This document shows positions 10,372 through 57,486 of a DNA stretch of 57,486 nt, one piece after another (the first letter of the stretch is position 1; every line of letters starts with the position of its first letter). Source of the DNA: Candidatus Poribacteria bacterium (lineage in GTDB: Bacteria > Poribacteria > WGA-4E > WGA-3G). The stretch spans positions 1-57,486 of the forward strand of contig JAJECN010000034.1 of the NCBI GenBank assembly GCA_022821965.1, given 5' to 3'. A program made the translations under genes and the position numbers. The notes beneath the pieces are model-generated. The model did no database searches. It was not told where the DNA came from and worked only from the letters and a program-made list of their open reading frames with translations.

Positions 10372-11175
10372 TTACGCTACGGCTACGATTACGATCTTCC
10401 ACTGGTCGGCTTGCTGAACGAGCGCATCGGCATCCATAACAAAGGTTCGCCGTGCCTCCACAGCTAACACATTTGCTTTGACTTGATGTAACACCTCCAG
10501 CGTTTGCATTCCGACCGTTGGTACATCAATACGGAAATCGTGATTCTCGGCAGCCGCTTTCGCTACAACGACTCCTTTCCTTCCTAAGTTCCCTCCCCTC
10601 AGAATAGTCGCATCCGTCCCTTCAATGGCTTCCATAGCAAGCACAATCTGATTTTTAACGACAACCGTTTGTCCTATATCCATGTTTGCTATTTGGCGGG
10701 CGGTGCTGATACCGAGTTCAATATCTGCCCATTGGCTTGCTGTTGGTTGTCGTGTTGTTAAAACACTGGGTTGTGGAAGAAGGTGATGGAGGTACTGGTC
10801 TTGCGGGAGGATAGTAAGTCCAGCAGATTCAAGGTAATTGAGTGCTGCGTTAACGATTGCGGTAGGTTTTTCGCGTCGATTCTGTACTAAAATTTTAATG
10901 GTGGTAGTATCAATTTGAAATGGACGAAGGAGAATATTTTTTTCGACTTTCCCGATAATCACAACCTCTTTTACGCCTGAAGTGAGAAGTGTTCGGGTAA
11001 TCTTTTGAATCTGACCCACCCCATAGGTGTGGAGTTCACAGGCAATTCCAGCGAAGCGTTGCGCGTCGGACTTTGTGATTTGGATGATAACGGGTTGTCG
11101 TTTATGGGCAACAGCGGCGTATGCTAATAGCACCGGCAGCTCACCTGCACCCGCAATAATACCCAATTTTTCCAT
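10372..11175 (-). CDS. lpxI: UDP-2,3-diacylglucosamine pyrophosphatase LpxI
   Basis: 267 residues, the family length. Begins EKLGIIAGAGELPVLLA and carries the LpxI (DUF1009) signatures VVIIGKVEK, DQYLHHLLP, DIELGISTARQIANMDIGQTVVVKNQIVLAMEAIEGTDATILRGG and RIDVPTVGMQTLE. LpxI hydrolyses UDP-2,3-diacylglucosamine to lipid X in lipid A synthesis and replaces LpxH in many non-enteric bacteria. It is the last gene of the minus-strand lipid A block. Its start is preceded by CCGCAAGGAACTTTAAAAAT, close to the 3' end of the repeat leader that precedes several other genes here. Confidence 0.93.
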   Translation of the reverse strand: MEKLGIIAGAGELPVLLAYAAVAHKRQPVIIQITKSDAQRFAGIACELHTYGVGQIQKITRTLLTSGVKEVVIIGKVEKNILLRPFQIDTTTIKILVQNRREKPTAIVNAALNYLESAGLTILPQDQYLHHLLPQPSVLTTRQPTASQWADIELGISTARQIANMDIGQTVVVKNQIVLAMEAIEGTDATILRGGNLGRKGVVVAKAAAENHDFRIDVPTVGMQTLEVLHQVKANVLAVEARRTFVMDADALVQQADQWKIVIVAVA

Positions 11176-11265
11176 ATTTTTAAAGTTCCTTGCGGTTAAG
11201 TAAGGTTGTTTAAGGGTATGGTGTGCTTCTGTGTAAGGTCGCCCTCCATTTCATTACGGGCTTAC
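11176..11265 (-). promoter_or_regulatory. Divergent copy of the repeat leader before lpxI
   Basis: On the minus strand the bases just before ATG 11175 read AACCGCAAGGAACTTTAAAA-AT, nearly the 3' module of the leader repeat. About 70 nt further upstream GTAAGCCC also occurs, as at the 5' end of the plus-strand copies, but the middle is different. Either a diverged member or a mosaic. Confidence 0.45.
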
Positions 11266-11323
11266 GTCTCCGATGTTTTCATAACGGAGAGATCGGAGCG
11301 GAAACCAAATATTTAGAAATACC

Positions 11324-19258: not shown

Positions 19259-20017
19259 ATGATTAAAACCTTAAGCTTAACTAAATATTTTGGTAAGTTA
19301 TGTGCTGTAGATGAACTGACACTTGAGGTAGATGCCGGTGAGATATTTGGATTTCTTGGACCTAATGGTGCAGGAAAGACGACAACAATCAATATGCTGA
19401 CGGGCTTGCTCCGCCCTACATCTGGCACAGCGATGCTTGGTGGGTACGACATTCAGAAACAGAGTTTACAAGCGAAAGCGATTCTCGGACTGATGCCAGA
19501 TACGCCACAACTTTACGAAGCGTTGAGTGGTAGACAGTTTGTCCGTATGATAGCTGATTTATATGAGGTGCCGCCGGAGCAAACCGAAAATGAGATGGGT
19601 GTCCTACTTGAGCAGCTTGAACTTACCGATGCCGCTGACGATCAGATTAAGGGATATTCTTACGGCATGCAGAAGAAAATCTTGCTCATTTCGGTGCTTG
19701 TGCATCACCCGCAAATTCTTTTTCTTGATGAACCCACCAGTGGTCTGGATCCGAGGAGTGCACGCACTGTCAGGGAGATCTTGCGAGAACGCTGTGAACA
19801 GGGTTCTACTGTATTCATGACAACACATATCCTTGAAATTGCCGAGCGTATTTGTGACCGAGTTGGTATTATCAGTAAAGGTCAACTTATTGCTGTGGGA
19901 ACCCTTGCGGAATTGCAACAAAAAAAGCAGGAAGACCACAAACAACCTGCTGATGTCAACCAGCACCAGACAGAGACATTGGAGGATATTTTTCTTGATC
20001 TGACAGCGGATGCCTAA
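19259..20017 (+). CDS. ABC transporter ATP-binding protein (ABC-2 exporter type)
   Basis: 252 residues. Walker A GPNGAGKT with K40, signature region YSYGMQKK in place of LSGGQ (usual for ABC-2 exporters), Walker B ILFLDEPTSGLDP and the H-loop TTHIL. The C-terminal tail is Q/E-rich. It powers the membrane protein encoded 161 bp downstream. The ribosome site is weak. The two genes are split by a copy of the leader repeat, so the permease may have its own control. The substrate is unknown. Confidence 0.93.
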   Translation: MIKTLSLTKYFGKLCAVDELTLEVDAGEIFGFLGPNGAGKTTTINMLTGLLRPTSGTAMLGGYDIQKQSLQAKAILGLMPDTPQLYEALSGRQFVRMIADLYEVPPEQTENEMGVLLEQLELTDAADDQIKGYSYGMQKKILLISVLVHHPQILFLDEPTSGLDPRSARTVREILRERCEQGSTVFMTTHILEIAERICDRVGIISKGQLIAVGTLAELQQKKQEDHKQPADVNQHQTETLEDIFLDLTADA

Positions 20018-20085
20018 ATTTTGTTGACAACGCTGCTGACTTCGCCATAGCAATCTGATGGCAGTTGCCTTAGGAATGCTTCAGG

Positions 20086-20178
20086 GCGTAAGCCTAAGCA
20101 TCGCGCCGGGAAACCGGATATACGGAGAGGATCGTTCCTGCAAAACGTGCCTTATCGAACCGCAAGGTAAATTAAAAA
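20086..20178 (+). repeat. Leader repeat, copy 1 (before ABC permease)
   Basis: 93 bp running directly into ATG 20179: 5' GTAAGCC, then CGCGCCGGGAAACCGGATAT, ACGGAG, a small hairpin AGGA-TCGT-TCCT, GCAAAAC, TATCGAACCGCAAGG and TAAATTAAAAA. It contains the ribosome binding site of the permease gene. Full-length relatives are at 22391, 23941 and 24111; 3' parts at 38830, 43298 and 45796. Confidence 0.85.
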
Positions 20179-21813
20179 ATGTTAAAAAATATTAAAGTTC
20201 TACTCAGAGCGGATTTGCAGGGATGGTTGAATGGCATTAAATACGGTGGAGAGGCGTGGCGAAAAACCACTTTGAAGTGTATCGGTTACCTCGTCTTCGT
20301 TGTCGCGCTATCGGTGTTAGGTAACTCCCTTTTCACGCATTTGCGGCTCACTGAAGCGCAGCCAGCACTTGTGTTAGGTGTAATTAACGGGTTCATAGTT
20401 TTCGGGATTATCGTTATCGCAAAAGAATTGATGGAGAGTTCGCTAAAGATTCTATACGAGGCACCGGACACCAATCTGTTACACGCTGCGCCGATTCAAC
20501 CGATCGCAATTTTCGGGTATAAGCTTATACATCTCACGATCACGCGCTTTCTGAGTATACTCTGTTTTCTGGGACCGCCATGGGTAGCATTCGGTCTCAT
20601 ATTTGACCTGCCGTGGTATTTTTATGCAGGACTGTTTCCGGTCTGCTTGTGTCTTCTGGTGATGATCGCGAGTTATGTTACCATCAGCGTAATGTTGATT
20701 GCCCGCTTCTTTTCATCTGGGTGGTTTCTCGCAACACTCAAGGTAATCGGCACTGCAATCGGCGTAGCTGTGGGCTTTTTATTGTCGTTGACCCTATTTT
20801 CCGAGTTTGAACCGATTCAGATAAAAAAGTTTTTGCTCAATTGGGCTTCCGAGGGAACGACAGATGCGGGTACCACGTGGTATCCACACGAGTGGATTGG
20901 GAAGTTCCTATTGAGTTGGGTCACTGAACCCACAATTGGGGTCCGATTGAGATGGGCACTGCAGGGTTTCGGGGGAAGTCTCGCTGCTGTTGGAGTGGCA
21001 GTGCTTGTCGCACAACTGATTTATCAGCGTGGTTGGGAGAACATCCGGCAATTGAAATCTAAGCGTAAACCTGTGCGGAATACCGGTGATTCTAAAGCAC
21101 TTCACCTGGGACGTGTGGGGATTACACTTGGACGTGGGAAGGTCCGAGCCATGATGCTAAAAGACTTCCTCATTTTTGTCAGGCACAGTGGGCGGCTAAT
21201 TGCGGTTGTGATGCTCACACTTTTTTTACTGATTCACATTGCTATCTTGCTCATGCATGGAGGCGGCGCAGATGAGAACGCTGGGCAAATCCTAACGGTG
21301 CAGATAGTTCTTTATAGCGTGCTGATTACCTTTGGTATTAGTTGTAATGGGCTTCGAGACGAAGCGAAAACATGGTGGATGCTGAAAACCGCACCTGTTG
21401 CCCCGAAGTTAGTGTTCATGGGTAAATTCTTGACTGCACTCCTCTGTGCGCTGATTTATGCTGAGTTCTGGTCCCTGTTTGCTGTTTGTTTGCTCCAAAT
21501 ACCGAGAGATGCTATGATACCAGTGATGCTAACGCCTATCTTAACACTTCCAGCAGCGTGTGCGATGAACACGGCGATTGGAACACTACCGTGGATGGCG
21601 GAATTGACACATCAGCCGAGACCGATCTTGCGGGTTTTAACGTTCACGGTGGTGCTTATTATTGATGTGGCTCTCGTCCTTGCCCCGGTAATAGCGTGGC
21701 ATACAGAAAGTTTCATTGCGTTTATCGTGTTGATAATCCTCCTGGCAGGCATATTTGCGATGTCTTATAGATGGGGAATAGGGAACCTCCGTAGGTTATT
21801 GGTCGCACAGTAG
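20179..21813 (+). CDS. ABC-2 type transporter permease
   Basis: 544 residues with about a dozen hydrophobic segments in two groups (residues about 35-210 and 270-535), separated by a soluble stretch rich in R and K (290-330). It is long for an ABC-2 permease and resembles the putative ABC exporter membrane subunits that pair with a single ATPase. Partner of the 19259 gene. Its ribosome site AAGGTAAATTAAAAA comes from the leader repeat. Substrate unknown. Confidence 0.85.
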   Translation: MLKNIKVLLRADLQGWLNGIKYGGEAWRKTTLKCIGYLVFVVALSVLGNSLFTHLRLTEAQPALVLGVINGFIVFGIIVIAKELMESSLKILYEAPDTNLLHAAPIQPIAIFGYKLIHLTITRFLSILCFLGPPWVAFGLIFDLPWYFYAGLFPVCLCLLVMIASYVTISVMLIARFFSSGWFLATLKVIGTAIGVAVGFLLSLTLFSEFEPIQIKKFLLNWASEGTTDAGTTWYPHEWIGKFLLSWVTEPTIGVRLRWALQGFGGSLAAVGVAVLVAQLIYQRGWENIRQLKSKRKPVRNTGDSKALHLGRVGITLGRGKVRAMMLKDFLIFVRHSGRLIAVVMLTLFLLIHIAILLMHGGGADENAGQILTVQIVLYSVLITFGISCNGLRDEAKTWWMLKTAPVAPKLVFMGKFLTALLCALIYAEFWSLFAVCLLQIPRDAMIPVMLTPILTLPAACAMNTAIGTLPWMAELTHQPRPILRVLTFTVVLIIDVALVLAPVIAWHTESFIAFIVLIILLAGIFAMSYRWGIGNLRRLLVAQ

Positions 21814-21871
21814 TGAAGCCCGCATCACTTGCAACCTCGCCTGTTTCTAAAAGTGCAAGAAAGAAGGGAAG

Positions 21872-22396
21872 ATGTTAATACAATATGAAAGCATAACGCC
21901 AGATGTACATCCTTCTGTTTTCATCGCTCCAGGCGCGATGATTATTGGTGATGTAACAATTGGTGAAGCGTCGAGCATCTGGTTTAACAGTGTGCTCCGC
22001 GGAGATTTAGAGCCAATCCGAATCGGGTGTCGCACCAACGTTCAAGACGGTGCAGTCATACACATGGACAAAGAGATTCCGTGTCTTATCGGTGATGATG
22101 TTACCATCGGACACGGCGCAATTCTCCATAGCTGCACCATCGGCAACGGTGCCCTGATCGGCATGGGAGCGATTCTCCTGACAGGTTCGGTGATTGGCGA
22201 AAATGCCGTTGTCGCAGCGGGCACGCTTGTCCGTGAGGGGCAGGAAATCCCGCCGGGTGCCGTTGCAATGGGAGTCCCGGCAAAAGTCCGACGTGAGGCT
22301 ACTGAGGCGGAACTTGAGCGTGTTCGACGTGGCAAAGACGATTATGTTGAACGTGGCAAACTGATGCGAGAAGCAAGTGTTGGTCAAGGTGCCTAA
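21872..22396 (+). CDS. Gamma-class carbonic anhydrase family protein
   Basis: 174 residues, left-handed beta-helix made of hexapeptide repeats (MIIGDVTIGEASSIW, VTIGHGAILHSCTIG, ALIGMGAILLTGSVIG). The three metal ligands of the gamma-carbonic anhydrase/YrdA group are visible as His in AVIHMD and in IGHGAILH. A C-terminal helix follows. Family members bind zinc or iron; many have no measured carbonic anhydrase activity. Its TAA stop lies inside the first bases of the next leader repeat. Confidence 0.92.
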   Translation: MLIQYESITPDVHPSVFIAPGAMIIGDVTIGEASSIWFNSVLRGDLEPIRIGCRTNVQDGAVIHMDKEIPCLIGDDVTIGHGAILHSCTIGNGALIGMGAILLTGSVIGENAVVAAGTLVREGQEIPPGAVAMGVPAKVRREATEAELERVRRGKDDYVERGKLMREASVGQGA

Positions 22397-22510
22397 GCCC
22401 AAGCAACGCGCCGGGAAACCGGATATACCGATAAGAACATTCTTGCAAAATCGACTTGATCGAACCGCAAGGAAAGTTAAAAATATCAAACCGCGAGGAA
22501 AATTAATAAT
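22391..22510 (+). repeat. Leader repeat, copy 2 (before Gfo/Idh gene), with doubled 3' module
   Basis: Begins in the stop codon of the previous gene and runs to ATG 22511. It has the CGCGCCGGGAAACCGGATAT core. The small hairpin reads AAGA-ACAT-TCTT, a changed but still paired version of AGGA-TCGT-TCCT in copy 1. The 3' module occurs twice: TCGAACCGCAAGGAAAGTTA and then AAACCGCGAGGAAAATTAAT. Confidence 0.85.
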
Positions 22511-23551
22511 ATGGCAAAACGAACATGTTTGATGATTGGTGGCAGTGGTATGGCTGGTGGTTGGATCAACAATTTCACTACTAATTTCGATGATCGTATC
22601 GAAATTGTTGGTTTAGCAGATGTGAATACAGATGTCCTCACAGCACAGGGCGAAGCGTTAGGGCTTGGCACCTCACAACTCTTCACGGACTTTAACGAAG
22701 CGTGTGCGACGGTCAAGGCAGACTTCTGTGGCATTGCTGTTCCACCGCAATTCCATAGCCCCGCCGCGATTGCCGCTATGGAAAACGGGATGCCCGTTAT
22801 CTGTGAAAAACCGATTGCCGACACTTTAGATGCAGCAAAAGCCATGGTGCACACCGCCCAAAAAACCGGATTGCCGTGTGCTATTATCCAAAACTATCGT
22901 TATGCTGATAATAAGCAGGAATTGATTCGTATCCGTGATGAAGGCAGATTGGGCAGACTTCAGCATATTGTAGGTCGATACGCGTGCGATTACCGTCGTT
23001 ATCTCTCATGGGGCAGGGCATGGCGACACGATATGGATTTTGGGCTTCTTTTTGAAGGTTCCGTCCACCACCTTGACATGCTTCGGTTCCTCTCCGGTGG
23101 CGATTGTGAAACACTAATCGGATTCGGTTGGAATCCAGAATGGTCAAGTTTTAAACATTATTCAAGCGGCTTCTATATGATGCGAATGGATAACGGGGTT
23201 CATACCTCTTATGAGGGAAACAGTTCTTCCGCAGGCATCATTAATTGTTGGAATTCTGAACACTACCGCGCCGAGTTTGAAGAGGGTGCCGTCGAAATCG
23301 CAGGCGGAAACCAGATGACGATCCACCGCGTCGGTGGTGAAACCGAAGTCTATGAGGCACCAGCAATCCCTTATCACGCGCATCAACACTTGTTTGATGA
23401 ATTCCTGAATTGGCTTGACGGTGGTGAACCTTCTGATACGCGAGTTGAGGACAACATCAAAAGTTTCGTGCTTGTCATCGCCGCGATGGAGACAACCCTT
23501 GACGGGCAACCGAAACAAATCGCCGATTACCTGAGTGATTTGGAACTTTAA
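22511..23551 (+). CDS. Gfo/Idh/MocA family oxidoreductase
   Basis: 346 residues. Rossmann NAD(P)-binding N-terminus (MIGGSGMAGGWI), the family motif CEKPIA with its catalytic-region Lys at about residue 101, then the alpha/beta C-terminal domain with SVHHLDMLRFLSG (H of the active-site region). Family members oxidise or reduce sugars and inositols. In this kind of genome they are abundant and linked to carbohydrate breakdown. The specific sugar cannot be named. Confidence 0.92.
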   Translation: MAKRTCLMIGGSGMAGGWINNFTTNFDDRIEIVGLADVNTDVLTAQGEALGLGTSQLFTDFNEACATVKADFCGIAVPPQFHSPAAIAAMENGMPVICEKPIADTLDAAKAMVHTAQKTGLPCAIIQNYRYADNKQELIRIRDEGRLGRLQHIVGRYACDYRRYLSWGRAWRHDMDFGLLFEGSVHHLDMLRFLSGGDCETLIGFGWNPEWSSFKHYSSGFYMMRMDNGVHTSYEGNSSSAGIINCWNSEHYRAEFEEGAVEIAGGNQMTIHRVGGETEVYEAPAIPYHAHQHLFDEFLNWLDGGEPSDTRVEDNIKSFVLVIAAMETTLDGQPKQIADYLSDLEL

Positions 23552-23599
23552 GGTCTGGGTTTTATACTTGGGAAGGTACGTATCGAATAGGTGTTGACT

Positions 23600-23896
23600 A
23601 TGTTCGATCCTAACCCTGAAATACCGCATGTTCTTGAAGATATTCCTGAATCTGAGCAACGCGCACTTCTTGAGAAGGCAGCGACGTGGATTGTGCGGCG
23701 CGGTTTGACTGCTCCAGCGATTCTATTCTTAGAAATCGGCAAGCCGCTTAACTTTTTGGGAAGCCAACTTTTGATTGGATTTAGTCCTTTTATTCAAGTG
23801 GTCTTCAAAGGGGACGAATACCAAAAATTCGCACTCATCTTGGAAAGAGATGAAAATGTTGAATTGCTGATTGAATTGATTGAGGCACACTCGTGA
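23600..23896 (+). CDS. Conserved small protein of unknown function
   Basis: 98 residues from ATG 23600; the upstream in-frame GTG 23591 is less likely because it overlaps the AGGTG ribosome site. Acidic N-terminus (PEIPHVLEDIPESEQRALLEKAATWIVRRG), then a hydrophobic centre (APAILFLEIGKPLNFLGSQLLIGFSPFIQVVF) and an acidic C-terminus. The centre may be membrane-associated. I do not recognise a family. It lies 48 bp after the oxidoreductase gene. Confidence 0.65.
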   Translation: MFDPNPEIPHVLEDIPESEQRALLEKAATWIVRRGLTAPAILFLEIGKPLNFLGSQLLIGFSPFIQVVFKGDEYQKFALILERDENVELLIELIEAHS

Positions 23897-23940
23897 CTCC
23901 GTTACCAACAAATAGGGGTCGGTTCTCCATTAATTACAGT

Positions 23941-24030
23941 GTGTAAGCCAAGCATCGCGCCGGGAAACCGGATATACGGAGGGGATCATTCCAGCAAAAC
24001 ATACCCTATCGAACCGCAAGGAAAATTAGA
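23941..24030 (+). repeat. Leader repeat, copy 3 (no gene attached)
   Basis: Full-length copy with the CGCGCCGGGAAACCGGATAT core and GAACCGCAAGGAAAATTAGA at its end. No gene starts here: the first ATG downstream opens a 6-codon frame. A GTAGCATA repeat and then copy 4 follow. The 305-bp gap 23897-24201 is thus made almost wholly of repeats. Confidence 0.85.
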
Positions 24031-24055
24031 TAGGACTTATGCATGCTGCTCTTTT

Positions 24056-24078
24056 GTAGCATAAACTTTTAGTTTGTG
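24056..24078. repeat. GTAGCATA repeat (copy 1)
   Basis: GTAGCATA followed by the palindrome AAACTTTTAGTTT and GTG. Related units at 25593-25681 and 38721-38774. Confidence 0.75.
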
Positions 24079-24110
24079 TTTCCGCTGTTAGGAATAGAGA
24101 TTAGTTAGTG

Positions 24111-24201
24111 CGCGTAAGCCCAAGCAACGCGCGGGCTGGATATACGGAGAAGATCGTTCCCATAAAACCGGTCTTACCGAACCGCAAGGAAAATTAAAAA
24201 T
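24111..24201 (+). repeat. Leader repeat, copy 4 (before the acyltransferase gene)
   Basis: Runs into ATG 24202. The 5' part has GTAAGCCCAAGCAACGCGC but a shortened GGGCTGGATATACGGAG centre; the 3' module CCGAACCGCAAGGAAAATTA plus AAAAT is intact and provides the ribosome site. Confidence 0.85.
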
Positions 24202-25569
24202 ATGGCAGTAGAATTGAGAATGCTTCAGATGGATCAGACGATGACCAAGGGAAAAATCGGAAAATGGCTGGTTAAGGAAGGCGATACCGTCACGCAGGGA
24301 CAACCCTTGTTAGAGATTGAAACCGATAAGGTAGTCCATGAACAAGAATCTCCTACCGATGGTGTTATCGCGCAATTGTTTGCTGAGGAAGGTGCAAATG
24401 TCCCCGTCAACGCCTTATTAGCGATTATCGGAGCGCCCGGCGAAGAGGTGGCACGCGTTGAAGTGGATACCGCTGCGGAACAGCAGCAAGAACCGGAACA
24501 GGAAGAACCGGTACAACCCACACGACCGGAAGCAACACCATCAACGCCGACCGTTGCACCAAAAGCCTCCCCAGCGGCACGCCAACTCGCCGAAAAACTC
24601 GCTATTGATCTGACCGAGGTCAAAGCCTCTGGTCCGGGTGGACGCATCCTTGAAAGCGATGTACAACGATACATTGACTTAAGAGAACCAGTTCCGGCTC
24701 CGACCGAAACGACGCGCCTTAAAGCATCACCGCTTGCACGGCGATTAGCGAAGGAGCATGGTGTTGATCTTAGCGCAATTGCCGGTTCCGGCCCCGATGG
24801 CAGAGTCGTCCGGGATGATGTCCTACAAGCGAGCGCGACGGCTGTTGAAACCCCTATTGTGGAGACTCCTGCTCTTCAGCAGGCAACAGAAGTTATCCCT
24901 ATGGATGGCATCCGTGAAATTATCGCAGAACGGATGACCATGAGCGTTCAAACCAATGCCAGCGTCACACTCCACACCGAGGTTGACGCAACGGCTTTCG
25001 TCGAATTGCGCGGGATGCTCAACGATAAATTGCAAGCAAGAGAGGTAAGCCTTACTTACACCGATCTGCTTGTGAAGGTCGTAGCGAATGCTTTGTGCGA
25101 ACACCCACGACTCAACACAACGCTCACGGATGAAGGAATACACCTATTGCCAGAGGTTAACATTGGGGTGGCAGTTGCCTTGGAGGATGGGTTGGTGGTA
25201 CCGGTCGTCCAAAATGCGGATAAAGAGCGGTTATCAGAAATCTCCGCGCAGGTAAGAAGTTTCGCTGAGCGCGCACGCAATAATCAACTGACACCCGGCG
25301 AACTTCAGGGTGGGACCTTTACCATTACAAATCTTGGAAACTTTGGGATTGATGCGTTCACACCGATCATCAATCCACCGGAGAGTGCTATTCTTGGGGT
25401 AGGACGGATTCTGAAGAAGCCAGTCGTTCACGAAGATGAGATTGTTATCCGAAGTATGTTGACGCTGAGTTTAACGTTCGATCACCGTGTGATAAACGGC
25501 GCGCCCGCTGCACAGTTCCTACAAACCGTCTCCGGCTATATTCAAGATCCATATCTTTTGTTAGTGTAA
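24202..25569 (+). CDS. Dihydrolipoamide acyltransferase (E2 of a 2-oxoacid dehydrogenase complex)
   Basis: 455 residues. Lipoyl domain at 1-80 with lipoyl-lysine K43 (IETDKV); a P/E/Q-rich linker; two peripheral-subunit-binding domains in tandem (KASPAARQLAEKLAIDLTEV and KASPLARRLAKEHGVDLSAI), where one is usual; then the trimeric catalytic domain ending LTFDHRVINGAPAAQFL. The catalytic His of DHRV is present, but the Asp of the classic HxxxDG is Asn. Such N variants occur in the family. It moves acyl groups to CoA in a pyruvate, 2-oxoglutarate or branched-chain complex; no E1 or E3 gene is adjacent, so which complex is unknown. Confidence 0.92.
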   Translation: MAVELRMLQMDQTMTKGKIGKWLVKEGDTVTQGQPLLEIETDKVVHEQESPTDGVIAQLFAEEGANVPVNALLAIIGAPGEEVARVEVDTAAEQQQEPEQEEPVQPTRPEATPSTPTVAPKASPAARQLAEKLAIDLTEVKASGPGGRILESDVQRYIDLREPVPAPTETTRLKASPLARRLAKEHGVDLSAIAGSGPDGRVVRDDVLQASATAVETPIVETPALQQATEVIPMDGIREIIAERMTMSVQTNASVTLHTEVDATAFVELRGMLNDKLQAREVSLTYTDLLVKVVANALCEHPRLNTTLTDEGIHLLPEVNIGVAVALEDGLVVPVVQNADKERLSEISAQVRSFAERARNNQLTPGELQGGTFTITNLGNFGIDAFTPIINPPESAILGVGRILKKPVVHEDEIVIRSMLTLSLTFDHRVINGAPAAQFLQTVSGYIQDPYLLLV

Positions 25570-25592
25570 TATCTAACGTAAGTTGCCACTTT

Positions 25593-25681
25593 GTAGCATA
25601 ACCTGTTAGATTGTGCTGTTTTTTGTAGCATAGACTGTTAGTCTGTGCTTCTGCGTGCGCAAACTGAAAGTTTACGCTACA
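25593..25681. repeat. GTAGCATA repeat cluster (three units)
   Basis: Two direct units (GTAGCATA at 25593 and 25625, the second followed by AGACTGTTAGTCTGTGC) and one inverted unit whose CTAC ends at 25680 with palindrome AAACTGAAAGTTT. Located between convergent genes, where the hairpins could act as a terminator. Confidence 0.75.
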
Positions 25682-38720: not shown

Positions 38721-38774
38721 GTAGAATAAACTTTTAGTTTGTGCTCCCTTGTAGCATAGACTGTTAGTCTGTGC
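38721..38774. repeat. GTAGCATA repeat (two units)
   Basis: GTAGAATAAACTTTTAGTTT (38721) and GTAGCATAGACTGTTAGTCT (38751), each with an internal palindrome. A half unit (ATAAACTTTTAG) follows near 38797. Same family as 24056 and 25593. Confidence 0.75.
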
Positions 38775-38829
38775 ACTCAGGTGTGGTTAATGCGATATAA
38801 ACTTTTAGAAATGGTATAACCAGAACTTA

Positions 38830-38859
38830 CCTCACCGAACCGCAAGGAAAATTAAAAAT
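38830..38859 (+). repeat. Leader repeat 3' module (before the sulfatase-fold gene)
   Basis: CCTCACCGAACCGCAAGGAA followed by AATTAAAAAT directly before ATG 38860; identical over the last 24 nt to copy 4. Only this 3' third of the leader is present. Confidence 0.8.
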
Positions 38860-40248
38860 ATGAGTTGTAACATAGTCGTCGTTGTTTCAGATACATTACG
38901 AACCGCATATCTCAGTCCTTACGGCAACGATTGGATTCAGACACCGAATTTGGCACGCTTTGCCGAACAGAGTGTCAGATTTACGAACGCACACCCAGAA
39001 TGCTTGCCGACGATTCCGACGCGCCGCACCTTACATACCGGTAGACGCGCCTATCCGTTCAGCACTTATACGCCTGTGCCGTGGGACAACGTCTATACAC
39101 CCGGTTGGCAGCCGATGTCTTCCGATGAACCCGCAATCGCTGAATCGCTCGTCCAAAATGGGTATCATACCGGCTTCTTCGCCGATGTACCGCACTATTT
39201 CGTGCCGGGCATGAATTTCACGCGCGGCTTCCGGCAGTGGGAATTCGTTCGTGGGCAAGCCGAGGATAGATACCGCGGTGGCGCGCACGCGGATCCATCA
39301 CTGATTTCTCGCTACCGAGGGAACCCCGCTCGTATCCGTGCCCATATTGTGAACGTCCAACCTGAACGTCCGGAGGAAACGTGGCCCACCGCGCGGTTGT
39401 TCCGTTCCGCCATCGAATTCGTCGAACACAACCATCAAAATACACCCTTTTACCTCTATGTTGACGGATTCACACCGCACGAAACATGGGAAGCACCAAT
39501 CCATTACTATGATCTCTACGGTAAGCGCGAAGACCGAGAACCTATCTGTCTCAATCTGCCCTACGGTTCGCTTAAAGATGAAGAACTTGAGGAACGATTG
39601 CCGAGTGTTAAAGCCAACTACGCCGGTTTGGTAACGCTCGTAGATACATGGTTTGGAAGATTGGTGGATACCATTGATCGCCTCGGACTCCGTGAAAATA
39701 CACTCATCATTTTCCTGGCAGACCACGGCACGAACTTCGCAGAGAATCCGGACAAAGCCACCGGCAAACCCGCAAACTTTATGTACCCCGGTACGATGGA
39801 CATCCCTTTGATAGTCAGCCATCCGTCAGGTGCTAACGCTGGCACGACGTGTGATGAATTCGTCTATACGCTTGATGTGCCCGCCACCGTCATGGCGGCA
39901 AGCCAAGTCGAGCCTGCTGGCGAGATTCAAGGGCAGAGTTTGCTTCCACTTGTGGAAGGAAAAAGCGGTTTTGAGTCGCGTGAATACCTGACCTGTCGCT
40001 ATGTCAACTCTGTTTGGTATAAAGACGCGAAGAGTTGGTACTTCTCCAGCGTTGATTTCGAGGATGATATACGGCTGTTTGACCTTGAGTCAGATGTCGC
40101 TTGTCAGCATAATATCGCCGACAAGGGGGCTGATCGGATTGCACTCGCGCAGGAGCGGATCTTGGCGGATGCAGGCGGCCACCTACCGCACTATAAACGC
40201 CAAGGTAGAACGGATGCCCTCGGCAGACCGCAGTTCGCTGAGGCATAG
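38860..40248 (+). CDS. Sulfatase-fold hydrolase lacking the formylglycine cysteine
   Basis: 462 residues, no signal peptide. Alkaline-phosphatase/sulfatase superfamily: metal-binding VVSDTLR (D11), QTPNLARFAEQSVRFTNAH, LPTIPTRRTLHTGRR, and LADHGTNFAE as the second metal motif. Aligning on the TG that follows the nucleophile (9 residues after it in the 410 sulfatase), the nucleophile position is Thr51 in T-I-P-T-R, not Cys. C48 is 3 residues too early and followed by LPTI rather than xPSR. A Thr nucleophile is known in nucleotide pyrophosphatase relatives, so this may be a phosphatase or phosphodiesterase rather than a sulfatase. Cytoplasmic as far as visible. The leader repeat provides its ribosome site. 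Confidence 0.82.
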   Translation: MSCNIVVVVSDTLRTAYLSPYGNDWIQTPNLARFAEQSVRFTNAHPECLPTIPTRRTLHTGRRAYPFSTYTPVPWDNVYTPGWQPMSSDEPAIAESLVQNGYHTGFFADVPHYFVPGMNFTRGFRQWEFVRGQAEDRYRGGAHADPSLISRYRGNPARIRAHIVNVQPERPEETWPTARLFRSAIEFVEHNHQNTPFYLYVDGFTPHETWEAPIHYYDLYGKREDREPICLNLPYGSLKDEELEERLPSVKANYAGLVTLVDTWFGRLVDTIDRLGLRENTLIIFLADHGTNFAENPDKATGKPANFMYPGTMDIPLIVSHPSGANAGTTCDEFVYTLDVPATVMAASQVEPAGEIQGQSLLPLVEGKSGFESREYLTCRYVNSVWYKDAKSWYFSSVDFEDDIRLFDLESDVACQHNIADKGADRIALAQERILADAGGHLPHYKRQGRTDALGRPQFAEA

Positions 40249-43291: not shown

Positions 43292-43316
43292 CAAAGTACA
43301 AGGAAAATTAAAAACA
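43292..43316 (+). repeat. Leader repeat 3' end (before the MBL gene)
   Basis: ACAAGGAAAATTAAAAACA immediately before ATG 43317: the ribosome-site part of the leader repeat only, starting within the intergenic 27 bp. Confidence 0.6.
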
Positions 43317-45137
43317 ATGGAGACCCACTTTTCCCAACTCAGCCAACACCTATATGTCCATCACGGACATGTCAACACGGGTATTCTCCGCGACGGAAAC
43401 CGGGCACTCCTCATTGATCCGAGTGGAACCACTCTACAGGCTACGCTCTCGGAACTCGGCATCACGAATGTTGAGCAGATCCTTTTTACGCATCACCATC
43501 GCGATAGTACAGCAGGCTTTCCAATATCTAATAATGCCCGCATCGGGGTTCCAGCGAAAGAGGCAACATGGTTTAGCGAAGTCGAAACCTTTTGGAACGA
43601 CCCGAAATACCGTTGGCATCTCTACAACTATCACCCCCATAACCTCATGCTTGCTGACGCGGTCTCCGTAACGGATACATACACCGAAGACGCGCAGATC
43701 CAGTGGGGTCCGGCATCCCTACAAGTCCTTGAAACACCAGGGCATACCGATGGGAGTATTACCTATCTCATTGATGTTGATGGTGAACGCTTCGCTTTCT
43801 CTGGTGATCTCATCTACGACGAGGGGAAGGTGTGGGAACTTTATAGTTTACAGAAAGGGCAACAAACGAGCGATTATCACGGGTTCCTCGGCGCACGAGA
43901 TGAACTGACGGAGAGCCTTGAAAAGGTCCGTCAGGCATCGCCTGCAACACTCATTCCAACACACGGCATTGTCATGAACAATCCGGACAAGGCAATTGAC
44001 GCGCTTTTGGAACGGTTGGCGTACTGCTACGATAAATATGTGGCGATTTCTGCGCTCCGGCACTACTTTCCGCAGCTTTTTGCGGAATTTGAGGGACATC
44101 CGGGGCACATGCCGATCCGAGAAGGTACACCGCCACCCGAATTCCTACGCCATTTCGGTACGACGTGGTTGATTATCTCCGAGACAAATGAAGCGTTTGT
44201 GATGGATTGTGGTTCGCCGAATGTCATCAAACAGATTCAGCAGTTGCAAGCGGATGGCGAAATCTCGGAAGTTACACAGTTTTGGGTGACGCACTACCAC
44301 GATGACCACGTTAACGCTACCCCTGAGTTTCAGGAAACTTTCCCGTGTGAAACGATCACTGATAGAGTTGTCGCGCGAGTCATCACAGAACCAATTGGTT
44401 TCCGACTCCCTTGTATTTCGCCCGCGGTTACCAGAGTAGATCGCATCACCCAAGATGGGGATACTTGGCAGTGGAATGAGTTCACAATGACAGCATACCA
44501 TTTCCCGGGGCAGACCTATTATCACGGTGGATTGCTCGTTGAGGGACGTGGCGTACGGATGTTCTTTGCGGGTGATTCTTTCACAATGGCGGGAATTGAC
44601 GATTACTGCTCTGGCAATCGGAATCTACTCGGCAAGGATGTCGGTTACGAAAAGTGTCTGCGATTGATTCAGCAACTCAGACCGACGCATATTTTTAATT
44701 GCCACGTCAATCCGGCGTTTGATTTTACTGATACCGAGATTCAGTGTATGCTGGACACGCTTGCCGAGCGTGAAAAGTGCTATACCGCTCTCTTCCCTTG
44801 GGACCACGCCAACTACGGAATGGATGAACATTGGATCCGCTGTTATCCGTATGAGCAGGAGATTGGATTGGGAGAAACAGCACAGTTGCGCGTGGAGATA
44901 ACAAATCATTCGTTTGAACCGCGTACAGCAATTGCTCAACCGATTCTGCCAGTATCGTGGGGTATAGAGGTTCCTGTAATGGAAACAACTATTCCACCAA
45001 GGACGGATGGACACATCGATTTTTCCATTCCCATTCCACAGCACTGTGAAGCATTGGGACGAATTGTCGTGCCTGTGGACATCACTTATGACGCGCGTCC
45101 ACTCGGTCAATTTCGAGAAGCAATCTTTGTTTTTTAA
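43317..45137 (+). CDS. Protein with two metallo-beta-lactamase domains
   Basis: 606 residues, no signal peptide. Domain 1 (about 1-230): H59-x-H61-x-D63 (THHHRDSTAG), TPGHTDGS, SGDLIYDEG, TPTHG. It lacks the His that normally follows the Asp (Ser instead). Domain 2 (about 275-480): full H326-x-H328-x-D330-H331 (THYHDDHVN), FPGQTYYHGG, FAGDSF, FNCHV. Residues 490-606 form a beta-sandwich-like tail. The fold covers hydrolases of many esters and amides, so the substrate is open. Domain 2 looks complete; domain 1 may bind one metal or be regulatory. Ribosome site from the leader repeat. Confidence 0.85.
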   Translation: METHFSQLSQHLYVHHGHVNTGILRDGNRALLIDPSGTTLQATLSELGITNVEQILFTHHHRDSTAGFPISNNARIGVPAKEATWFSEVETFWNDPKYRWHLYNYHPHNLMLADAVSVTDTYTEDAQIQWGPASLQVLETPGHTDGSITYLIDVDGERFAFSGDLIYDEGKVWELYSLQKGQQTSDYHGFLGARDELTESLEKVRQASPATLIPTHGIVMNNPDKAIDALLERLAYCYDKYVAISALRHYFPQLFAEFEGHPGHMPIREGTPPPEFLRHFGTTWLIISETNEAFVMDCGSPNVIKQIQQLQADGEISEVTQFWVTHYHDDHVNATPEFQETFPCETITDRVVARVITEPIGFRLPCISPAVTRVDRITQDGDTWQWNEFTMTAYHFPGQTYYHGGLLVEGRGVRMFFAGDSFTMAGIDDYCSGNRNLLGKDVGYEKCLRLIQQLRPTHIFNCHVNPAFDFTDTEIQCMLDTLAEREKCYTALFPWDHANYGMDEHWIRCYPYEQEIGLGETAQLRVEITNHSFEPRTAIAQPILPVSWGIEVPVMETTIPPRTDGHIDFSIPIPQHCEALGRIVVPVDITYDARPLGQFREAIFVF

Positions 45138-45653: not shown

Positions 45654-45795
45654 CCTATATGCTGTCAAATTTCGCATTCACATTATATGAGAGACATAGC
45701 GGAATTTCTTATCTTTTTAGCCCAGGAGACCTAAGCTTGAAACGAAGTGGAAAGCGATTCGACACAAAGAAACGTGAATGCCAAATTCACGCTGC

Positions 45796-45819
45796 TTATC
45801 CGCAAGGAAAATTAAAAAG
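45796..45819 (+). repeat. Leader repeat 3' module (before the PhyH gene)
   Basis: TTATCCGCAAGGAAAATTAA then AAAG before ATG 45820, matching the 3' end of the leader copies upstream. The 166-bp gap before it has nothing else I recognise. Confidence 0.7.
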
Positions 45820-46704
45820 ATGAAGGCATTGACTGATTCCCAAATCCACGATTTTAATGAGAACGGCTATCTATTACTCGAAGATGCGCTTGCGCCTGAC
45901 GATCTAAACCCACTCATCGAGGAGTTTGAGGAGATTGTTGATACGGGGGCATCGGAACTCTATGCGGAAGGAGAAATTGATTCCGAATTCAAAACGGAAG
46001 GGTTTGACACCCGTTTGGCAAAAATTACGGCGCAATCCCCTGCCGTATTTCAGAAGGTCTTTAGCGGTGCACACACCGGACCGGCACTCTTCGATCTGCT
46101 CATCAATCCGAAACTCCTTGACATCGCCGAGTCGCTCGTCGGACCAGAGATTATGTGTCACCCCGCATACCGGGTGCGCCCTAAACTTCCTGAACATGAC
46201 CGGACCCTCGTTCCGTGGCATCAGGATGCTGGCTATATGGAACCTAAATGCGATTCAGTTTTACAACTCACGATCTGGATTCCACTAATAGATGCGACTG
46301 TTGAGAACGGCTGTATGGAAGTTATCCCGCATGCCCATCGGGACGGCGTTTTCCGACATCGTCACTCTGAACGCTTCTATCTTGAGATACCAGATGATGC
46401 ATTACCCGAAGTCGATCCGGTCGTAGTCCCCGTCAAGTTCGGCAGTGTCCTCCTGTTTACCAATCTAACACCACACCGCTCTATTCCGAATGTTAGCAAT
46501 CAGGTCAGATGGAGCGTTGATTCCCGCTATCAGGACGCGGCAAAACCGACGGGTTATCAACCGGAAGCAGGCTTTCTCGCACGGAGCCGACTGCACCCTG
46601 AAGATGTCGTTACCACACCTGAGGAGTTTAAGCGGGTTCGCGACGAACATCAACCTGGTCCCGGTCCAAATCGATGGGCAAAGAAGGAGAATAATGATGC
46701 GTAA
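45820..46704 (+). CDS. Phytanoyl-CoA dioxygenase (PhyH) family Fe(II)/2-oxoglutarate oxygenase
   Basis: 294 residues from ATG 45820, which carries the leader-type ribosome site; in-frame codons upstream to 45778 run through that leader. Begins LTDSQIHDFNENGYLLLEDAL, the usual PhyH start. Iron ligands: H134-x-D136 (VPWHQDAGY) and the distal His in LTPHRSIPN, with the 2-oxoglutarate-binding Arg in RWSVDSRY. C-terminal part ends GPGPNRWAKK. Family members hydroxylate diverse small molecules; they are strikingly abundant in poribacterial genomes. Substrate unknown. The 3' end overlaps the next gene by 11 bp. Confidence 0.93.
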   Translation: MKALTDSQIHDFNENGYLLLEDALAPDDLNPLIEEFEEIVDTGASELYAEGEIDSEFKTEGFDTRLAKITAQSPAVFQKVFSGAHTGPALFDLLINPKLLDIAESLVGPEIMCHPAYRVRPKLPEHDRTLVPWHQDAGYMEPKCDSVLQLTIWIPLIDATVENGCMEVIPHAHRDGVFRHRHSERFYLEIPDDALPEVDPVVVPVKFGSVLLFTNLTPHRSIPNVSNQVRWSVDSRYQDAAKPTGYQPEAGFLARSRLHPEDVVTTPEEFKRVRDEHQPGPGPNRWAKKENNDA

Positions 46705-47749: not shown

Positions 47750-49087
47750 ATGAATCGTTATCCTAAATATAAAGAGAGCGGCGTGGAATGGATTGGAGAG
47801 ATACCAAAGCATTGGGGAATCAAAAAACTCAAATACGTTGCAAAGATACTGCCAAGTAATGTTGATAAACACATCTATCCAGATGAGATCCAGGTCAGGT
47901 TATGCAATTATACAGATGTTTATTACAACGATTATATTACAGCTGATACCGTTTTGAAAAAGGGTAGTTGTAAGGAAAGTGAGTTTGCGAAATTCGCTTT
48001 GAAGAAAAGTGATGTTATAATTACCAAAGACTCTGAGACCCCAGATGATATTGGCGTTCCAACTTATGTCAAAGACAATTTGGACAGTGTTGTTTGTGGT
48101 TATCATTTAACAATGCTTAGACCACTCGCTTGTCGTGGGGAGTACATTTTTAGATTTATTCAATCTGATAGGACGAGAAGATATTTTGAGTTGGAGTCAA
48201 ATGGAATTACCAGATACGGCTTGGGAAAATCATCAATTGAAAATCTGCTTTTAACCATACCTACTGATTCCGAACAGCAGCAAATCGCCAACTTCCTCGA
48301 CCGCAAGACGGGACAGATTGATGAACTCATCCGCATCAAAGAACGACGCATCGAACTGCTGCAGGAACAACGCACCACGCTAATAAATCAGACAGTGACA
48401 AAGGGACTTGATCCGAGTGTGGAGATGAAACCCTCGGGCGTGGAGTGGATTGGAGACATACCAAGACGTTGGGAAGTCAATAGACTCAAATACGTTGCGA
48501 AGATACTACCAAGTAATGTTGATAAACACATCTATCCAGATGAGATCCAGGTCAGATTATGCAATTATACAGATGTTTACTACAACGATTATATTACAAC
48601 TGATACCGTTTTGAAAAAGGGTAGTTGTAAGGAAAGTGAGTTTGCGAAATTTGTTTTGAGGAAAGACGATGTTATAATTACCAAAGATTCTGAGACCCCA
48701 GATGATATTGGCGTTCCAACTTATGTCAAAGACGATTTGGACAATGTTGTCTGTGGCTATCATTTAACAATGATTAAGCCACTTTCTTGTCGTGGGGAGT
48801 ACATTTTTAGATTTATTCAATCTGATAGGACGAGAAGATATTTTGAATTGGAATCAAATGGAATTACCAGATACGGTTTGGGAAAATCATCAATTGAAAA
48901 TCTGATTTTACCCATACCTACTGACTCCGAACAGCGACAGATCGCTGACTTCCTCAATAATAAGACCAAACAAATTGACGAATTGATAACCACAGAGCAG
49001 CAAAAAATCGAACTCCTCAAAGAATACCGTCAATCCCTCATCTCCGAAGCAGTGACCGGCAAGATAGACATCCGAAACGAGGTTTAG
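47750..49087 (+). CDS. hsdS: Type I restriction specificity subunit (HsdS), orphan, with near-identical halves
   Basis: 445 residues. Two target-recognition domains separated by conserved helices: SGVEWIGEIPKHW (start), IPTDSEQQQIANFLDRKTGQIDELI (spacer helix 1), SGVEWIGDIPRRW (start of half 2), IPTDSEQRQIADFLNNKTKQIDELI (helix 2). The two recognition domains are almost the same sequence, offset by 219 codons, whereas HsdS halves normally differ. If functional, it should recognise a symmetric (inverted repeat) bipartite site. No hsdM or hsdR is in the window on either side. A weak -10 sits 55 bp upstream. Confidence 0.92.
   Translation: MNRYPKYKESGVEWIGEIPKHWGIKKLKYVAKILPSNVDKHIYPDEIQVRLCNYTDVYYNDYITADTVLKKGSCKESEFAKFALKKSDVIITKDSETPDDIGVPTYVKDNLDSVVCGYHLTMLRPLACRGEYIFRFIQSDRTRRYFELESNGITRYGLGKSSIENLLLTIPTDSEQQQIANFLDRKTGQIDELIRIKERRIELLQEQRTTLINQTVTKGLDPSVEMKPSGVEWIGDIPRRWEVNRLKYVAKILPSNVDKHIYPDEIQVRLCNYTDVYYNDYITTDTVLKKGSCKESEFAKFVLRKDDVIITKDSETPDDIGVPTYVKDDLDNVVCGYHLTMIKPLSCRGEYIFRFIQSDRTRRYFELESNGITRYGLGKSSIENLILPIPTDSEQRQIADFLNNKTKQIDELITTEQQKIELLKEYRQSLISEAVTGKIDIRNEV
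47827..48957 (+). repeat. Internal direct repeat of hsdS recognition domains
   Basis: About 470 bp at 47827-48300 recur at 48484-48957, offset 657 bp, with only scattered differences. The repeat covers the recognition domain and the start of the spacer helix. Confidence 0.9.
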
Positions 49088-56626: not shown

Positions 56627-56711
56627 GTAGTAGGCATACGCCGTATGCCGTGACAGTAGTAGGCACGCGCCGTATGCCGTAACAGTAGTAGGCACGCTCC
56701 GCGTGCCGTAA
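56627..56711 (+). repeat. REP array upstream of the transposase (three units, 29-nt period)
   Basis: GTAGTAGGCATACGCC at 56627, GTAGTAGGCACGCGCC at 56656 and GTAGTAGGCACGCTCC at 56685, each followed by the complementary GCCG arm and GTAACA-type spacer. Each unit is a GTAG tetranucleotide plus an imperfect hairpin. Confidence 0.92.
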
Positions 56712-56723
56712 ACCATAATAACT

Positions 56724-57365
56724 ATGTTCAATCTCTTTAATCCGAACAGCGACTTTCAAATTATAGCTGGTTCAAACCTACCACATTGGTTTCAACCCCA
56801 AGCAACCTACTTTATCACGTTTCGCACTGAAGATTCACTCCCTACGCACCTAGCTCGGCGATGGCATGCCGAACGATCCGCATGGCTTGCACGACATGGA
56901 ATTACCACTTCAACACCGGGTTGGAAAGATAAATTGGCGACGCTTCCAGAAAGGTTTCGTAAACAATTTCATGAAACCTTCTCACAGCGGTACATGGAAA
57001 ATCTTGATAAGGGTCTCGGAGCATGCGTCCTACGAAACCCCGAACTATCAAAGATCGTAGCGGACAGTTTATTATACTTTAATGGTGATCGTTATCATAT
57101 AGGCGACTTCGTGGTTATGCCTAATCACGTTCATTTGCTAATCTGTTTTTTAGGTAACACAGAACTCTTGAAACAATGCCGTTCATGGAAAAGATTCAGT
57201 GCTGGTAAAATTAACAAAGTGCTTGGTAAAACTGGACGGTTTTGGCAGGAAGAGAGTTTCGATCATCTCGTACGCTCACCTGAGCAGTTCTATGCGATCC
57301 AGCAATATATACGAAAAAATCCGAGCCATCTTCAGAAAGGTGAATATTTTTTGTATCAGATCTAA
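56724..57365 (+). CDS. REP-associated tyrosine transposase (RAYT, Y1/HUH family)
   Basis: 213 residues. HUH motif H135-x-H137 (VMPNHVHLLI) and a likely catalytic Tyr195 (QQYIRKNP), with FWQEESFDHLVRSPEQFY between, as in IS200/IS605-type TnpA_REP proteins. The start is FNPNSDFQII. RAYTs cut and join single-stranded REP DNA at a GTAG tetranucleotide and are held as domesticated single genes that spread REPs. Here the gene sits between two REP arrays with matching GTAG-hairpin units, so enzyme and substrate can be paired. The frame is intact and all key residues are present. Confidence 0.95.
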   Translation: MFNLFNPNSDFQIIAGSNLPHWFQPQATYFITFRTEDSLPTHLARRWHAERSAWLARHGITTSTPGWKDKLATLPERFRKQFHETFSQRYMENLDKGLGACVLRNPELSKIVADSLLYFNGDRYHIGDFVVMPNHVHLLICFLGNTELLKQCRSWKRFSAGKINKVLGKTGRFWQEESFDHLVRSPEQFYAIQQYIRKNPSHLQKGEYFLYQI

Positions 57366-57366
57366 A

Positions 57367-57486
57367 GTAGGCACGCTCTGCGTGCCGTAACAGTAGTAGG
57401 CATAAGCCGTATGCCGTAACAGTAGTAGGCACGCTCCGCCGTGCCGTTCACTAAATGGGTTTACGGCACGGCGGAGCGTGCCTACT
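57367..57486. repeat. REP array downstream of the transposase, ending in a large palindrome
   Basis: Direct units begin at 57367 (one GTA shorter), 57393 and 57422. The last one pairs with an inverted unit: 24-nt arms 57424-57447 and 57463-57486 are perfectly complementary around a 15-nt spacer. The array reaches the window end and may continue. Confidence 0.92.

Follow-up and report, generated by a model that had tools for sequence, protein, structure and literature searches.

The stretch of DNA analysed here (the window, 57,486 nt) carries full and partial copies of a repeat found just upstream of genes, which we call the leader and which occurs in two subtypes, A and B. A sequence-only reading had described full copies at 20086, 22391, 23941 and 24111, and we found all four at these places. 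It had also described the repeat as ending at start codons. This holds for copies 1 and 4 but not for copy 3, which stands upstream of copy 4 as its tandem neighbour. The further proposal that the 3' module stands alone at 38860, 43317, 45820 and before lpxI was right in part for 38860, where linker and module are both present, and not for the others. The copies at 45820 and before lpxI (11175, minus strand) are full subtype-B leaders, and at 43317 AAGGAAAATTAAAAA alone matches rather than the whole module. The features are as follows.

10372 to 11175, minus strand: lpxI gene
11174 to 11266, minus strand: full leader, subtype B, before lpxI (E 7.4e-13)
20086 to 20181, plus strand: full leader copy 1, subtype A, GGGAAACC variant (E 5e-6 with the subtype-B model)
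20179 to 21813, plus strand: ABC-2-type permease gene, with its ATG at the end of leader copy 1
21872 to 22396: hexapeptide-repeat gene, its stop codon supplied by TAAGCC of leader copy 2
22391 to 22486, plus strand: full leader copy 2, subtype A
22487 to 22509, plus strand: tandem partial second 3' module, CAAACCGCGAGGAAAATTAATAA, adjoining the oxidoreductase ATG
from 22511, plus strand: GFO/IDH/MocA oxidoreductase gene
23941 to 24032, plus strand: full leader copy 3, subtype A, no start codon, in tandem with copy 4
24112 to 24203, plus strand: full leader copy 4, subtype A, ending at the E2 ATG
24202 to 25569, plus strand: dihydrolipoamide acyltransferase (E2) gene, downstream of leader copy 4
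38784 to 38861, plus strand: partial leader, linker and 3' module (E 1e-5), its 5' hairpin replaced by a different repeat sequence, before a sulfatase gene at 38860
43300 to 43316, plus strand: leader remnant, the terminal 15 nt, AAGGAAAATTAAAAA, joined to the tail of the gene upstream
from 43317, plus strand: metallo-beta-lactamase-fold gene, after the 15-nt leader remnant
45730 to 45821, plus strand: full leader, subtype B (E 2.7e-10), ending at the ATG of the gene at 45820
from 45820, plus strand: phytanoyl-CoA dioxygenase-like gene

Aligned copies were about 105 nt long and share a common anatomy. The 5' edge is weak, either A-rich or CCAGAGCGC, and is followed by a GTA(A/G) foot (GTAG in subtype B, GTAAG in subtype A) and by a 4-bp hairpin, P2 (GCCC/GGGC and variants). 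P2 encloses a 2-bp inner hairpin with the triloop GNA in subtype B or AAC/AUC in subtype A. On the 3' side of the hairpin a conserved GGAU(A/C)UACGG leads into a linker of variable sequence and almost fixed length, such that 80 of 99 subtype-B copies could be aligned free of gaps. The 3' part, ACCGAACCGCAAGGAAAAUUAAAAA, runs directly into the start codon, and the AAGGA within its segment CCGCAAGGAAAAUUAAAAA is, judged by its sequence, the Shine-Dalgarno site. The CCGG-GAAA-CCGG motif that had been noted in the leader does exist, though it is a local variant confined to a minority of subtype-A copies.

Whole-genome searches (5.69 Mb) with up to two mismatches returned 130 copies of the 3' module GAACCGCAAGGAAAATTAAA and none of the reversed pattern. 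With a covariance model based on 63 subtype-B copies, at least 144 matches in the genome were obtained at E ≤0.01, a lower bound because 150 candidates were scored. Leaders were commonly in tandem or formed hybrids with other repeats. At L045:5413, L052:9839, L068:12892 and other loci the 3' half of the hairpin is swapped for TTTTTGCTTGGGGGTTTCTTCAGAT, which belongs to another repeat family, giving mosaic repeats. Another short hairpin repeat, GTAGCATARACTNTTAGTNTGTGC, is found in the window at 24036-24078, 25573-25647 and 38731-38773; several of its copies are near leaders, and the one at 38731-38773 occupies the place of the leader hairpin.

We measured the distance from the leader to start codons in 1.2 Mb of stretches from the same genome, many of them picked for holding copies, a choice that does not affect this distance. 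An ORF of at least 100 aa started within 15 nt of 78 of the 115 sampled copies, as against 9.5% of random positions (binomial p ~1e-51), and 53 of 80 such ORFs (at least 80 aa) began exactly 3 nt past the module. When only full copies with no tandem copy following were counted, 53 of 66 in the same genome (80%) and 79 of 96 in other genomes were found at the start of a long ORF. The genes behind the leader are unrelated, as had been proposed, both in the window and by protein family: 70 downstream proteins matched 117 Pfam families, the commonest of which occurred in 6 proteins, and no coherent gene set emerged. Upstream neighbours were co-directional in 69 of 78 assignable cases (88%, against a baseline of 77%, p 0.02), a modest excess.

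Comparison of orthologs revealed filled sites, empty sites and sites with another subtype at the same start codons. Among 30 genomes of the genus the E2 gene was filled in 20 and empty in 10, while lpxI was filled in 13 and the permease gene in 5. Orthologs of these three genes, 70-96% identical, were found with the leader, without it or with another subtype, and at least 14 changes on the tree are needed to account for them. Sixteen loci in twelve syntenic regions displayed the same presence/absence pattern. The clearest boundaries came from G001, in which a leader precedes a gene beginning MKRIAVV that has none in G000, G017, G009, G021 and G028. Aligned with G000, homology on the left ends 6 nt before the ATG of the empty site and starts again on the right at -2; G006 provided a similar clean insertion. 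At filled sites bases -1 to -6 resemble the leader and not the empty site. Leaderless lpxI orthologs mostly use a GTG start after GGAGCGAAAGCG and begin GGAGCGAAAGCGGTG, while those with the leader read CCGCAAGG up to an ATG; the ribosome site, and often the start codon, therefore differs between the two.

At most filled sites examined another 50-100 nt of local sequence preceded the leader, so that the mobile unit has no sharply defined left end. In the one case tested, 20018-20085, this extension was single-copy in the genome and was on this ground rejected as part of the mobile unit. When orthologous leaders were compared with their flanks for conservation, subtypes proved to be swapped at one and the same site and the flanks to take in coding sequence. 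The filled/empty alignments showed no target-site duplication, and the 5' edge of the insertion was blurred. Some of the turnover could reflect recombination among copies or horizontal gene replacement.

The leader was present in all 35 sampled genomes of the genus, with 2 to 223 module copies, and the exact module was found in none of 24 sampled genomes outside it. Among public GTDB species genomes, all the matches listed for the exact module were Poribacteria MAGs, and the organism of the window is therefore very probably a Candidatus Poribacteria; from background on the phylum and these MAGs, we take it to be sponge-associated. Two single-contig genomes of the genus, G021 and G028, have only 2 and 9 module copies and represent natural near-empty controls. 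Elsewhere the leader was rare or absent, apart from a small number of copies in three other genera of the class and a diverged version in a sister genus (G062, G063). Of the latter 28 copies were read, with a GTAG foot and a covarying hairpin of 9 bp whose pairs exchange freely (GUCAUCGAC/GUCGAUGAC, GAAAACAAC/GUUGUUUUC and others), double changes being seen at 6 of the 9 pairs in alignment A3. About half of the copies read were close to start codons. They keep GGAUAUACGGAGAG, while their 3' end, GAACGCCUUGCGAACAACAAAAA, differs and has no Shine-Dalgarno site, so the ribosome site may have been added to the element within the studied genus. The sister-genus CCTTGCG is the reverse complement of CGCAAGG in the studied genus, and one sister-genus locus (L329) has three tandem copies with 83-nt spacing.

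The leader pattern or exact module was also detected in viral contigs, in only four out of 2.9 million. One of these, IMGVR_UViG_3300012932_000188, encodes a terminase, a portal, a head protease and a major head protein, the last with no match in 50,697 phage records. The 22 kb read from this contig contain seven leaders (72-100 bits), all of which end at the ATG or GTG of ORFs of 85-424 aa, a density approximately 12 times that of the host (0.56 per 22 kb). IMGVR_UViG_3300000400_000001 has a leader at a homologous gene, and its terminase-like protein resembles that of the first contig by eye. Loci L369, L370 (on IMGVR_UViG_3300012932_000188), L371 and L373-L375 are phage-like, with leaders at start codons. 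Since the leader is common to both, these phages presumably infect Poribacteria.

Covariation was found in one part of the leader. A tree-based null test on subtype B returned pairs 15-29, 14-30 and 20-24 with E ~0 and a fourth pair with E 0.1; all four are Watson-Crick and lie within P2 or the inner hairpin. Pair counting agreed, with 96.4% of P2 cells paired and double changes at 4 of 4 pairs, and 98.4% of cells paired in the inner hairpin; the hairpin recurs in subtype A, where GC pairs are exchanged for CG. The hairpin proposed earlier from a single AGGA/TCCT compensatory change was absent from the covarying pairs, and the true one lies 5' of it, GTA(A/G)GCCC...GGGC(T/G). A longer helix seen by eye, P3 (CGG-NAGG/CCUNACCG), was 69.8% paired and not significant. 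P1 (CGUA/UACG) was 68.7% paired and unproven in the genus, and 92.5% paired in the sister genus. Folding of the whole leader, calculated for six copies, was no more stable than that of shuffled sequences (z -1.84 to +0.61). Covariation proves that the stem is under constraint and is compatible with action as RNA or as single-stranded DNA; the hairpin may function at the RNA level, or it may be used as single-stranded DNA in mobilisation.

We consider it probable that sponge Poribacteria and their phages share the leader as a mobile cassette for translation initiation that is itself non-coding. New copies would arise directly in front of unrelated genes, at their start codons and mostly within clusters of genes that run in one direction, and the inserted copy would then supply the ribosome site. 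The cassette would be transcribed with its gene and used for initiation as its ribosome-binding site, as the Shine-Dalgarno sequence suggests, and phages would carry it between hosts. Placement could come about either by insertion targeted to starts or by selection among insertions. The sequence-only reading had offered a selfish element, inserting at start codons and bringing a new ribosome site. As a pattern this is supported by the start-codon association, the presence or absence of leaders in orthologs, the clean insertions, the range of 2 to 223 copies, the tandems and the phage copies; as to machinery, we found no dedicated transposase.

A REP/REPIN-type element, moved by RAYT (Y1, HUH) transposases and found at starts through selection alone, would also account for a short, high-copy, non-autonomous, lineage-specific intergenic repeat, and we regard it as unlikely. 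Subtype B and the sister-genus copies have, as REPs do, a GTAG foot followed by a hairpin or imperfect palindrome, and the genome holds four Y1_Tnp genes, one of them in the window and flanked by GTAG-hairpin repeats. These flanking repeats, however, have a different hairpin, GTAGGCACGCTCCGCGTGCC. The number of Y1_Tnp genes was uncorrelated with the number of leaders over 36 genomes (Spearman rho -0.06), on which ground RAYT was rejected as the mobiliser, and G012 has 105 module copies with no Y1 match. Unlike REPs, the leader has a ribosome site as its 3' end, placed at start codons, and keeps one orientation to genes; we know of no REPs that end in this way. The Y1 (RAYT-like) transposase ORF of the window is at 56724 to 57365, with GTAGGCACGCTCCGCGTGCC repeats on both sides (56629-57468). 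It scored above the cut-off for PF01797 in one search and gave no match at 1e-5 in another. This region is a REP/RAYT arrangement unrelated to the leader.

A structured regulatory RNA that coordinates a regulon was the other half of the earlier reading; we considered it as a cis-acting Poribacteria leader, either riboswitch-like or bound by a protein, that is inherited vertically with its genes. Like the leaders and riboswitches in Rfam, the element has a covarying hairpin upstream of a Shine-Dalgarno site, its linker is of near-fixed length in the 80 of 99 gap-free subtype-B copies, and inspection of the sequence shows a CCU close to the 3' end that could form pairs with the Shine-Dalgarno site. 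What covaries is one short hairpin, while P1 and P3 are paired in just ~69% of cells and folding is no better than that of shuffled sequence (z -1.8 to +0.6). A regulon is unsupported because the downstream genes have no function in common, orthologs often have no leader or another subtype, and CsrA is absent. The two near-empty single-contig genomes also speak against it, and an Rfam search at permissive thresholds matched the leader to no family. Several ANGGA motifs had suggested a CsrA regulon, which we rejected when PF02599 gave no genome match at E 0.001 in a MAG that is 95% complete. A shared regulatory RNA is less likely than a mobile translation-initiation leader, and on its own terms quite unlikely.

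We think it very unlikely that the leader is a mobile promoter, that is, a repeat with transcription signals which includes a ribosome site by chance. Putative mobile promoters in the literature are repeated upstream of unrelated genes, and the leader is likewise a repeated, apparently transferable sequence with an expression signal before such genes. Its signal is instead translational, base-exact at the start codon and found within gene clusters, as the 69 of 78 co-directional upstream neighbours also indicate. A sigma-70-like search of 19900-24300 gave six promoter-like sites, a total equal to the shuffled number, and none was inside a leader; a promoter within the repeat was rejected on this basis. 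GGATATACGG moreover has GGATCTACGG as a variant, which departs from a -10 box. MITEs and Correia-type elements with outward regulatory signals resemble the leader in being non-autonomous, ~100 nt long and a source of expression signals for neighbours. They differ from it in that its signal is a ribosome site and not a promoter, and that we saw no terminal inverted repeats, target duplication or parent transposon for it; the sequences conserved at its 5' and 3' ends, (CC)AGAGCGCGTA and ATTAAAAA respectively, lack complementarity. A coding remnant or leader peptide running through the repeat is extremely improbable and was refuted as a general explanation: although one frame is open in a few copies and the L369 ORF runs through its leader, in the 80 gap-free copies the three frames are open in only 24, 1 and 25 cases, stop codons fall at fixed positions in every frame, and no frame is conserved.

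Returning to the mobile translation-initiation cassette, mobile repeats that donate promoters are known, but we know of no repeat that donates a ribosome site, base-exact at the start codon, in more than 100 unrelated genes and in phage structural genes. A search of open-licence papers found no report of such a Poribacteria repeat or of mobile ribosome-site cassettes. It is possible, though we put this forward tentatively, that the leader represents a class of element placed at NTG starts, host- and phage-borne, that seizes the initiation of any gene it meets and has reached hundreds of genes within a single genus, with sister genomes surviving almost empty of it. If targeting places it, there is a new mobilisation mechanism to be found. 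If selection does, the genus offers a natural library of one 5' UTR before many genes, for which orthologs that lack the leader serve as controls and which would allow a direct measurement of what ribosome-site replacement does to expression and genome evolution.

Apart from the leader, the window contains two direct repeats of at least 300 nt, at 47780-48736 and 1-2412 (identity 93% and 76%), which are probably duplicated gene segments.
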